Source: an uncultured Pelagibacteraceae bacterium (GTDB taxonomy: Bacteria > Pseudomonadota > Alphaproteobacteria > Pelagibacterales > Pelagibacteraceae). Taken from it: a stretch of 41,092 nucleotides of DNA. Position 1 is the stretch's first letter. Every line of letters starts with the position of its first letter. Both the position numbers and the translations under genes were made by a program. Shown one piece after another: positions 26,811 to 30,227 of the stretch. The notes under the pieces are model-generated. The model was not told the DNA's origin. It saw only the letters and a list, made by a program, of their open reading frames with translations, and ran no database searches. The DNA is taken from the NCBI GenBank assembly GCA_902600245.1, contig CACKIQ010000006.1, forward strand, positions 1-41,092. Direction: 5' to 3'.

Positions 26811-27470
26811 ATGCATATTACCGTAAAAAATTTATTAGCCATTCAAAATAATATTAAAGATCATTTAAAAGCTTTAAATATTAAAAGTCACTCTAAAATA
26901 ATAGCAGTTTCGAAAACATTTAAAATTGATAAAATTTTACCACTTATAGAATACGGTCATCTAAATTTTGGCGAAAACAAGGTTCAAGAGGCTGTAGAAA
27001 AATGGACAGAAATAAAAAAAACAAATTCAGAAATTAAATTACATATGATTGGAAAACTACAAACTAACAAAGTTAAATTTGCAGTGAAGCTTTTTGATTA
27101 TATTCATTCTGTCGATAGTGAAAAACTTGCAAAAAAAATTGCCGATGAACAAAATAAAATAAATAAAAGAATTAAAATTTTTTTGCAGGTAAATATTGGT
27201 GATGAAAATCAAAAATCAGGTGTTCATAAAAAAGAGGTAAATGATCTTATTTATTACTGTAAACAAATTGATTTAGATTTAGTTGGTTTGATGTGTATAC
27301 CTCCAGCAAATACTGATCCTGAAATATATTTTGCAGAGATGAAAGAATTAGGTCATGTTCTTGGTTTAAATGAATTAAGCATGGGGATGTCTTCAGATTA
27401 TCTTAAAGCTGCCGAATATCATTCAACTTATGTAAGAATTGGTTCTAGTATTTTTGGTCAGAGACTTTAA
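26811..27470 (+). CDS. yggS: YggS family PLP homeostasis protein
   Basis: IIAVSKTFKIDKI, NFGENKVQEAVEKW, LHMIGKLQTNKVKFAV, LSMGMSSDYLKAAEYHSTYVRIGSSIFG. Confidence 0.94.
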   Translation: MHITVKNLLAIQNNIKDHLKALNIKSHSKIIAVSKTFKIDKILPLIEYGHLNFGENKVQEAVEKWTEIKKTNSEIKLHMIGKLQTNKVKFAVKLFDYIHSVDSEKLAKKIADEQNKINKRIKIFLQVNIGDENQKSGVHKKEVNDLIYYCKQIDLDLVGLMCIPPANTDPEIYFAEMKELGHVLGLNELSMGMSSDYLKAAEYHSTYVRIGSSIFGQRL

Positions 27471-27961
27471 AGAATTTCGATCTTTGAATTTTTTTTTAAT
27501 AACTTAAGCATAATAAAAAAATCTTTTTTTTTCAGTGCTACACATCCAGCAGTAGGTTTATAATTTTTTGTAAGATGTATAAATATACAACTACCAAGAC
27601 CAATAACTGGTTTACTAAAGTTATATTTTATTGGAATTAATAAATCATATTTATTATCTTTTCTCATGAGTTTCTCATGTTTTATTCTTTTTTTAATTTT
27701 AAAAAGTCTATTATATTTTTTTGGAAAACTTACATCATCACACCATCCCATATCTTTTTTAATTTCGACACATTTAAGTAAAGTTCTTGGTCTTTTTATA
27801 CGGTCTTTTCTAAAATATAAATTTTCAATTTTAAATATTCCTTTAGGTGTTTTTTGATCTCCTTCCTTTTTATTGATTGTAAAACCTTTTTTGCCAATAC
27901 AACACTTGAATTTAAATTCATCAATTTGAAGAGTGTGTTTATTTTTTACAAAAATTGTCAT
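27467..27961 (-). CDS. L,D-transpeptidase (YkuD/ErfK) family protein
   Basis: KKGFTINKKEGDQKTPKGIFKIENLYFRKDR ... GLGSCIFIHLTKNYKPTAGCVALKKKDF (HxxxxxxxxSxGC-like catalytic region, T/A variant); ATG at 27961. Confidence 0.85.
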   Translation of the reverse strand: MTIFVKNKHTLQIDEFKFKCCIGKKGFTINKKEGDQKTPKGIFKIENLYFRKDRIKRPRTLLKCVEIKKDMGWCDDVSFPKKYNRLFKIKKRIKHEKLMRKDNKYDLLIPIKYNFSKPVIGLGSCIFIHLTKNYKPTAGCVALKKKDFFIMLKLLKKNSKIEIL

Positions 27962-27973
27962 ATTGTCTTTTAT

Positions 27974-28537
27974 GTGAGTGTTCAAAATTTAATAATTTAT
28001 AAGTTTAACTCATTATATCGTATTCTTGAAGAAATTGGTTCAGATTTAAATTTTAAAATTATATTTGTTGATAATGAAAATTCTTTAAGTGATATAACAA
28101 AAAATCTTAATAATTATTTAATTATATCACATAAAAAATATCCCACTATTGCAAGTCAGTTTGTCTTAGAAAATATTCCAATAAATATTTTTAAATTAGT
28201 TGAAAAAATTAATATTGAATTTTTAAAAATACAATTCAATACTCAGTCAGAAGTAAAAGTAAATAATTATAAAATTGATCTTAATGCTAGAAAAATGATA
28301 ATTAATAATAAAAAACTTAATTTGACTGAAAAAGAAATAAATACAATTATTTATTTATCAAAATCAAACAAACCCGTTAGTATTAATGAGTTACAGGAAA
28401 AGGTTTGGAGCTATCAATCTAATATAGAAACACACACTGTCGAAACACATATATATCGTTTAAGAAAAAAAATTCTTAATACCTTTGATGATAACGAATT
28501 TATTGTTAGTAAAAAAAATGGCTATAAAATCAAATAA
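27974..28537 (+). CDS. OmpR/PhoB-type winged-helix protein with degenerate N-terminal receiver
   Basis: C-terminal LTEKEINTIIYLSKSNKPVSINELQEKVWSYQSNIETHTVETHIYRLRKKI...GYKIK; N-terminus lacks receiver acidic pair and phosphoacceptor Asp; GTG 27974 preferred as start. Confidence 0.75.
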   Translation: MSVQNLIIYKFNSLYRILEEIGSDLNFKIIFVDNENSLSDITKNLNNYLIISHKKYPTIASQFVLENIPINIFKLVEKINIEFLKIQFNTQSEVKVNNYKIDLNARKMIINNKKLNLTEKEINTIIYLSKSNKPVSINELQEKVWSYQSNIETHTVETHIYRLRKKILNTFDDNEFIVSKKNGYKIK

Positions 28538-28640
28538 AAAAAAAAATATTATCGCTAAAGATTTATTTACAAAAAAATATAAGCCAAAAGTAATTAAACC
28601 CAAAAAGGGGAAGGGAAGTTTTAAAAGAAAGAAAAGTTAA
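28518..28640 (+). CDS. ArfA-like alternative ribosome-rescue factor, 40 aa
   Basis: MAIKSNKKKNIIAKDLFTKKYKPKVIKPKKGKGSFKRKKS; LF..(K/R)...K.KKGKGS(Y/F).RK signature of ArfA; not in supplied ORF list (below size cutoff). Confidence 0.7.
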   Translation: MAIKSNKKKNIIAKDLFTKKYKPKVIKPKKGKGSFKRKKS

Positions 28641-28642
28641 AT

Positions 28643-29572
28643 TTAAAGTCTTGCCCCAATTTGCTGTATTACTTTTGCTGACATTTCAGTTCCCTTTTCC
28701 AAACTAAATTTTATTGAATTATTATTAACGTATCCATGTAAAAATCCAGCAGCAAATAAATCACCTGCTCCAGTAAGGTCAATAATTTTTAGATTTTTTT
28801 GTACATCGGTTTCAATAACTTCATTGCCGTTAATTGCAATTGCACCTTTTTCTCCTCTTGTAACAATTACTAATTTATTTAGTTGTTTTGAAAAGTTTAT
28901 TACGTCTTTAAAATCTTTTGCCTCAATTAAAGAGATAATTTCTTGCTCGTTAGCAAAAGTTATATCTAGCTTATTTTTAATTAGATTTAAAAAATGAGGT
29001 TTGTGTCTATCTACACAAAATAGATCAGAGAGCGACATAGCAACTTTATTTGCATTATTGATTGCTTTATCAAAAGCTTTTTTAGGTTCTCCTTCATCCC
29101 ATAAGTAACCTTCCAAAAAAATTATTTCACTTTTTTTTATTGCATCAGAACTAACATCATTTTCATTAATTTTTCCTGCTGTCCCTAGGTAAGTACACAT
29201 CGTTCTTTCAGAGTCTGGTGTAACTAATATTAAACATGTTCCTGTAGGTAATTCTTCTTTCTTTTTTGAATAAAAATATTTTACATTTTCTTTTTTTAAA
29301 CCCACCTCGTACCTACTTCCAAATTCATCATCAGAAACTTTACCTATAAAACCAACTTTGTCACCTAGTTGAGCTAAACCAACTATAGAGTTTGCTACAG
29401 AGCCCCCAGAAACTGTTTTTTCAATTTTAAGATTTGTTAATAAATTTTTAAATTCATTTTCATCAAAAAATAATTTCATCGTACTTTTTGTTAGATTATT
29501 TTGTACTATAAAACTATCATCAACTTTACAAATGACATCTACAATAGCGTTTCCTATTCCTAAAATTTTCAT
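28643..29572 (-). CDS. PfkB family carbohydrate/adenosine kinase
   Basis: GIGNAIVDVICKVDDSF, SVANSIVGLAQLGDKVGFIGKVSDDEFG, IDLTGAGDLFAAGFLHGY. Confidence 0.9.
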   Translation of the reverse strand: MKILGIGNAIVDVICKVDDSFIVQNNLTKSTMKLFFDENEFKNLLTNLKIEKTVSGGSVANSIVGLAQLGDKVGFIGKVSDDEFGSRYEVGLKKENVKYFYSKKKEELPTGTCLILVTPDSERTMCTYLGTAGKINENDVSSDAIKKSEIIFLEGYLWDEGEPKKAFDKAINNANKVAMSLSDLFCVDRHKPHFLNLIKNKLDITFANEQEIISLIEAKDFKDVINFSKQLNKLVIVTRGEKGAIAINGNEVIETDVQKNLKIIDLTGAGDLFAAGFLHGYVNNNSIKFSLEKGTEMSAKVIQQIGARL

Positions 29573-29573
29573 A

Positions 29574-30227
29574 TTAAGCTTTTTTGGTAATAACAGGTTT
29601 TTTTCTATTTGGGTAGCAGGTAGTACATATTTTACAAGTTAAGCCATAACAATCTCTTGCTTTACAATATTCTCGTCCATAAAAAATTATTTGTAAATGA
29701 AGCTTAGACCAAGTTTTTTTAGGAAATATTCTTTTTAAATCTTTTTCAGTTTGAATTACATTTTTTCCATTTGTTAAACCCCATCGTTGCGCAAGTCTAT
29801 GAATATGAGTATCAACTGCAAAAGCTGGATACCCAAAGCCTTGAGACATTACTACGCTTGCTGTTTTGTGTCCTACACCAGGTAATTTTTCAAGATCTTC
29901 AAAAGTTTTTGGTACTTTACCATTATGTTTTTCTAGCACTTGTTTTGACATTAAGTAAATACTTTTGGCTTTAATTCTAAAAATTCCAATTTTTCTAATT
30001 AATTTTTCAATTTTTTTTCTACCTAATTTTACAAAGTGTTCTGGTTTATAATATTTTGGATATATATCCTTTGTTACATTGTTAACATTCACATCAGTAC
30101 ATTGTGCAGAAAGAAGCACTGAAATTAATAATGTGAAAGTATTTTTACTTTTAAGAGGAACAGGTGCTCTGGGATAAATTTTATTAAGGGTTTTAATAAT
30201 GATTTTCGCTTTTTGTTTTTCATTCAT
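29574..30227 (-). CDS. nth: Endonuclease III
   Basis: LISVLLSAQCTDVNVNNVT, LPGVGHKTASVV, VDTHIHRLAQRWG, C-x6-C-x2-C-x5-C cluster CKARDCYGLTCKICTTC. Confidence 0.96.
   Translation of the reverse strand: MNEKQKAKIIIKTLNKIYPRAPVPLKSKNTFTLLISVLLSAQCTDVNVNNVTKDIYPKYYKPEHFVKLGRKKIEKLIRKIGIFRIKAKSIYLMSKQVLEKHNGKVPKTFEDLEKLPGVGHKTASVVMSQGFGYPAFAVDTHIHRLAQRWGLTNGKNVIQTEKDLKRIFPKKTWSKLHLQIIFYGREYCKARDCYGLTCKICTTCYPNRKKPVITKKA

Follow-up and report, generated by a model that had tools for sequence, protein, structure and literature searches.

Does a 40-codon open reading frame (ORF) in a SAR11 bacterium encode the ribosome-rescue factor ArfA? That protein had been regarded as restricted to certain beta- and gammaproteobacteria, and a published nucleotide hidden Markov model (HMM) survey of 15,259 genomes found arfA in none of 2,376 Alphaproteobacteria (PMC11633108). 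The frame lies at positions 28518-28640 of the forward strand of a 41,092-nucleotide (nt) stretch of contig CACKIQ010000006.1, here called the window, from an uncultured Pelagibacteraceae bacterium (assembly GCA_902600245.1). The original prediction, made from the sequence letters, had described it as an ArfA-like, naturally short, constitutively active back-up to transfer-messenger RNA (tmRNA). We conclude that the ORF is a real, conserved gene, designated arfA1, and that it very probably encodes a minimal alphaproteobacterial ArfA, a ribosome-rescue factor that would use release factor 2 (RF2) beside tmRNA-SmpB and would lack the non-stop control known from Escherichia coli.

Family, anatomy and conservation of the 40-residue protein

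Translation of the frame yields MAIKSNKKKNIIAKDLFTKKYKPKVIKPKKGKGSFKRKKS, a previously unannotated protein of 40 residues. Searched against Pfam-A it had a single match, to ArfA (PF03889), at 22.5 bits and an E-value of 7.7e-5 (curated cut-off 25.5 bits), and a search of the source genome, 856 kb in size and 70% complete, gave no other match to this family. All 31 aligned orthologues also matched PF03889 (best E 2.6e-8), and the cut-off was passed in the same-family genomes G152 and G415 (sister genus). The PF03889 search that had been proposed as a check thus favored the family assignment for the orthologues together and left the single sequence under the curated score. Comparison of an orthologue profile with E. 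coli ArfA by hhalign gave 91% probability over 34 residues without a gap, and the top six phmmer matches in the PDB were all ArfA chains, gapless, with weak E-values of 0.08-0.25.

The window protein aligns without gaps to residues 14-44 of E. coli ArfA, whose numbering is that of the window residue plus four. Its parts are as follows.

28518-28640, forward strand: arfA1, 40-residue ArfA-family protein with stop codon TAA (translation, PF03889 match, orthologue profile, dN/dS)
28545-28598, forward strand: codons 10-27 (N10 to K27), equivalent to E. coli ArfA N14-K31, the predicted RF2-contacting minidomain and strand, with L16 invariant and Y21 the F25 equivalent (alignment)
28602-28628, forward strand: codons 29-37, the KKGKGSFKR core, whose E. 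coli ArfA counterpart lies in the empty mRNA channel (Pfam match, alignment)

The segment of E. coli ArfA at residues 31-48 occupies the mRNA tunnel, residues 25-29 pair with a sheet of RF2, and L19, L24 and F25 contact RF2 residues W319, V198 and F217, respectively (PMC5378476; for the role of F25 see also PMC8012679). The window protein has the channel-binding core KKGKGS(Y/F)xR. Across 70 SAR11 loci, a set that contains a few repeats of one genome, N10, L16, K29, K30, G31, G33 and R37 (E. coli N14, L20, K33, K34, G35, G37 and R41) are invariant, K36 and S38 in E. coli numbering are nearly so, and position 21, the equivalent of F25, is aromatic throughout (tyrosine in 67 loci, phenylalanine in three). 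The resemblance of the KKGKGS(Y/F).RK core that had been noted originally therefore holds, with a correction to its register: equating L16-F17 with L24-F25 of E. coli would need a four-residue gap, and in the gapless pairing K20-Y21 correspond to L24-F25 and L16-F17 to L20-H21.

That the protein is born short was borne out by its relatives. It stops just past the stretch that in E. coli ArfA occupies the mRNA channel; 46 of the 70 proteins have exactly three residues beyond the R41 equivalent and end at E. coli position 44, and none of the 70 has the hydrophobic C-terminal tail. An AlphaFold model from the single sequence has one helix at residues 6-21 and almost no tertiary structure, which is compatible with, and weak evidence for, the assignment to ArfA (the E. 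coli helix spans residues 15-24; PMC8012679).

Of 143 Pelagibacteraceae genomes searched with an orthologue profile, 115, including Candidatus Pelagibacter ubique SCGC AAA795-A20, have one copy of arfA1 (E<=1.1e-12); five further matches in the family are weak. The gene is under purifying selection: the ratio of nonsynonymous to synonymous substitution rates (dN/dS) has a median of 0.14 across 1231 pairs, and column entropies at the three codon positions average 0.44, 0.37 and 1.05, third positions being far more variable. The gene order around arfA1 is also conserved, running YggS, L,D-transpeptidase, winged-helix gene, arfA, and then the convergent adenosine kinase and Nth genes, which occupy the following positions in the window (all from neighbor comparison).

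26811-27470, forward strand: YggS-like gene
27467-27952, reverse strand: YkuD L,D-transpeptidase gene, start uncertain and possibly as far as 27985
27986-28537, forward strand: upstream winged-helix (Trans_reg_C) gene, start codon uncertain
28643-29572, reverse strand: convergent pfkB/adenosine-kinase-like gene
29574-30227, reverse strand: endonuclease III-like (nth) gene

Each of the 60 genus-level loci examined had the winged-helix gene directly upstream. In some of these the kinase gene is several hundred nt off or out of range, and loci from the other genera of this family may contain additional genes in between. With the frame kept across the family, selection on it evident and the synteny fixed, the conservation across SAR11 that the original prediction had proposed to look for is present. 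An ORF of only 40 codons whose lysine-rich translation derives from A-rich sequence might be suspected of having arisen by chance in AT-rich DNA; frame conservation, the codon-position pattern and synteny rule this out, and we assign it a negligible probability.

Translation also confirmed the position of the frame and its 20-nt overlap with the winged-helix gene: arfA1 starts within Asn-Gly codons at the 3' end of that gene, whose stop codon ends at 28537, and the arfA1 stop codon lies 2 nt from the end of the convergent kinase gene. A run of 11 A at 28536-28546, at the winged-helix stop codon and inside arfA1, is a possible slippage site. An Rfam search of the window gave no match.

Release factors, control and competing explanations

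The RF2 of the same genome keeps the residues that contact ArfA, namely SPF, RHTSF (with F217) and W319, with isoleucine in place of V198, and its RF1 has alanine at the F217 position and threonine at the W319 position. No GGQ motif, the mark of the ArfB hydrolase domain, occurs in the 40-residue protein. When 57 genomes were searched for ArfB, the only GGQ frames were the two of RF1/RF2 size, and two control genomes scored over the cut-off; ArfB was thereby ruled out as an alternative. Among near-complete relatives, an alpha-type tmRNA was identified in 19 of 20 and SmpB in 27 of 28. The designation as a tmRNA back-up accordingly suits the lineage, which has tmRNA and SmpB and lacks ArfB, and is less secure for the source genome, in whose 70%-complete assembly neither tmRNA nor SmpB was found.

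The window protein is most likely a rescue factor dependent on RF2. When a ribosome reaches the 3' end of a message that has no stop codon, the basic C-terminal KKGKGSFKRKKS segment would occupy the empty mRNA channel, and the N-terminal helix and strand (N10-K27) would dock between the decoding center and RF2, which would then swing its GGQ loop into the peptidyl-transferase center and free the chain. The minimal ArfA would act in this way beside tmRNA-SmpB in a lineage without ArfB.

In E. coli, a hairpin ahead of the stop codon causes arfA to give a non-stop mRNA, and the full-length product is unstable through its hydrophobic tail (PMC8012679, PMC3989581); both are regulatory rather than structural traits of E. 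coli ArfA. The original prediction had spoken of a tail whose removal activates E. coli ArfA; the matter is better put as one of stability and regulation, the tail destabilizing the full-length protein (PMC8012679, PMC3989581). A hairpin scan recovered the E. coli control (-29.1 kcal/mol, z -6.0) and found nothing comparable at the window locus, the median best z over the 70 SAR11 loci being -1.4; it is thus unlikely that tmRNA regulates the gene by way of a non-stop message generated at a hairpin. As the arfA1 mRNA would carry its own stop codon and the protein would end where E. coli ArfA leaves the channel, arfA1 should escape the non-stop-mRNA/tmRNA repression known for E. coli ArfA, and its expression may be constitutive. 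Other control, by the upstream winged-helix regulator or by convergent antisense transcription, is possible.

Several observations weigh against our interpretation. The window sequence alone falls 3 bits under the Pfam gathering score, and an NCBIfam search of it gave no match. The hydrophobic patch known from E. coli is altered at two of its three positions (L19 to D/E and L24 to K/R), with the F25 equivalent kept. About one-fifth of the sampled near-complete family genomes are without arfA1, which is consequently not essential to SAR11 in general. Moderately stable folds (z below -3) occur near the gene in four of the 70 loci, and, as described above, the source assembly yielded neither tmRNA nor SmpB. 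With regard to the patch, L20, which lies beside the altered residues, is invariant in the 70 loci, and an alphaproteobacterial PF03889 homologue (L037) has the same pattern (E19, L20, K24, Y25). Overall, the ArfA resemblance claimed originally is upheld by the profile, the conserved frame, the synteny and the matching RF2, with the score of the single sequence as its shortfall.

The altered patch, together with a very basic composition and the absence of the gene from part of the family, would also be expected of a small RNA- or ribosome-binding protein of ArfA ancestry that has lost rescue function, for example a ribosome-associated or hibernation peptide. We consider this most improbable, given that no locus has lost the channel core or the F25 equivalent, that the RF2 contact residues are kept, that the gene fits an ArfB-shaped gap, and that many genomes swap it for a related variant instead of simply losing it. 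A factor that acts like ArfT of Francisella, recruiting RF1 as well as RF2, is very unlikely: ArfT is not hydrophobic at the F25 position and has a KKGGSTNKK sequence, whereas nearly all 70 SAR11 loci encode Y/F and KKGKGSF (Y21 and KKGKGSF in the window), and the SAR11 RF1 is without equivalents of W319 and F217. It is feasible, if on balance doubtful, that the protein is a regulated ArfA, its non-stop mRNA arising by another route, such as RNase III acting on a duplex with the convergent adenosine-kinase transcript, or its expression being under winged-helix control. The convergent gene ends only 2 nt away, E. coli arfA likewise overlaps a convergent gene (mscL), and the winged-helix gene is a fixed upstream neighbor; against this stand the lack of a hairpin at the window locus and the distance of several hundred nt to the convergent neighbor in some relatives. 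A minimal ArfA, most likely free of the non-stop control of E. coli, remains our preferred reading of the locus.

Loop-less relatives and phage copies

Among 386 alphaproteobacterial genomes, PF03889 matched in 11, eight of them over the cut-off, compared with none of the 2,376 in the published survey. Where arfA1 is lacking, the absence is clean at 16 genus-level loci, with the winged-helix and kinase genes directly adjacent. Many such genomes encode a protein of 35-48 residues elsewhere in the genome, which we term arfA2; it resembles arfA1 in its N-terminal half, has no KGKGS loop and ends in NKKxYNRKK. arfA2 was identified (E<=1e-10) in 16 of 27 Pelagibacteraceae without arfA1 versus 0 of 47 carriers (Fisher 1.9e-9, kinship ignored), and on a kinase tree the arfA2 label requires at least three changes. 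The neighbors of arfA2 differ between loci and include photolyase-like, hisZ/hisG-like and nuclease-like genes (L246-L257, L222-L224, L238). Another family of the order encodes, in 22 of 24 genomes, a second loop-less form of 41-44 residues (KSNPIARxLRTxK...NKKK...KKRxKIK); these proteins (L213-L221, L225-L237) match no Pfam family at its cut-off. In hhalign comparisons, the ArfA profile is linked with both loop-less forms at 95-96%.

Some arfA2 members match DUF7230 (PF23876), a domain of unknown function (DUF), with a best E of 2.8e-6. The window protein does not match it in Pfam-A, nor does anything in its own genome (G000), and PF23876 matches in Pelagibacteraceae are restricted to genus g281, so that most loop-less variants are outside the reach of DUF7230. 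A literature search on DUF7230 found nothing. In four near-closed Pelagibacter genomes (G341, G458, G561 and G563) neither arfA1 nor arfA2 was detectable, and ArfB was absent from the three searched (G341, G458 and G561); these bacteria may depend solely on tmRNA or possess some third form.

ArfA genes are also carried by phages. The pelagiphage HTVC027P gp30 (L156:15768-15944) is a 58-residue ArfA, named as such in PMC12753301, the one relevant paper in a literature search on ArfA with Pelagibacter. A scan of viral contigs identified at least 172 ArfA relatives, with bacterial neighbors at none of the 80 kept loci, and many of these contigs are marine (L072-L151); arfA2-type proteins are present on viral contigs as well. 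ArfA-type proteins, unannotated or hypothetical, occur in the named phages Cr30, CRP-212 and HTVC034P, the frames of Roseobacter phage CRP-212 (L394:295-432) and Caulobacter phage Cr30 (L395:232-396) being without gene annotation. The T4-like Acinetobacter phage Acj61 (L397:277-411) encodes a 41-residue hypothetical protein with the loop-less pattern NP.AK..RTP...DK..YKRK, a match at E 2 that rests on the motif, and 68 Acinetobacter phage records matched with weak E-values. A tblastn search of phages with the window protein gave no match, which was probably lost to the low-complexity filter, and a phage ArfA query did match.

Some phage proteins, 117-142 residues long, are fusions that combine an ArfA segment with a C-terminal domain, phrog_17747, and several of them have an N-terminal one, phrog_2423, as well (L090, L093, L105, L106, L108, L115, L120); they are possibly virion-associated forms of ArfA. 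Two PHROG families without assigned function, phrog_20887 and phrog_37108, match the phage ArfA proteins L083, L090 and L106.

These distributions raise what we regard as an evenly balanced possibility, namely that SAR11 has interchangeable RF2-dependent rescue peptides, comprising the minimal ArfA (KKGKGSF) and loop-less kin (NKKxYNRKK, NKKK..KKR) that would keep the RF2-binding half, exclude one another in genomes, sit at unrelated loci and occur also on marine and Acinetobacter phages. It is plausible that DUF7230-like peptides are replacements of the ArfA kind; if true, they would represent a previously unrecognized class of ribosome-rescue factor, and a phage would supply its host with a rescue factor of its own.

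Significance and comparison with known rescue factors

As far as the literature searched shows, these results are the first systematic evidence for ArfA as a family-wide gene in Alphaproteobacteria. SAR11, the most abundant of marine bacteria, have genomes pared down to a minimum, and a rescue factor of 35-45 residues retained in such genomes shows what has to be preserved. A minimal ArfA is defined by this natural truncation, and the loss of both hairpin and tail makes the control of ArfA without tmRNA repression a testable question. By way of the loop-less replacements and the copies on phages, one can approach the function of a DUF and the question of why phages carry rescue factors.

Of the known factors, E. 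coli ArfA (YhdL, PF03889) is alike in its gapless alignment over residues 14-44, KKGKGS(Y/F)xR core and aromatic residue at F25, and in having a short gene with a convergent neighbor in a genome whose RF2 has W319 and F217. The SAR11 protein differs in ending at about E. coli position 44 rather than 72, without the hydrophobic tail, in the lack of an in-gene hairpin, and in the replacement of L19 and L24 by D and K. ArfT of Francisella tularensis is likewise a protein of 40 residues, unannotated, from a reduced genome and without RNase III/terminator control, but it lacks the F25 aromatic and KGKGSF core and works with RF1 or RF2 (PMC6299226). BrfA of Bacillus subtilis is also a short basic protein in RF2-dependent rescue (PMC8012679); it is set apart in that it reportedly occurs only in Bacillus and is controlled through a non-stop mRNA. 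DUF7230 is related through the N-terminal half of the arfA2 variants of SAR11 and phages and differs in having no KGKGS loop. HTVC027P gp30 shares the core NPVAK..RTPKY....KPKKGRGSFKR and the name ArfA (PMC12753301), and is distinguished as a phage gene with an N-terminal extension of ~25 residues.
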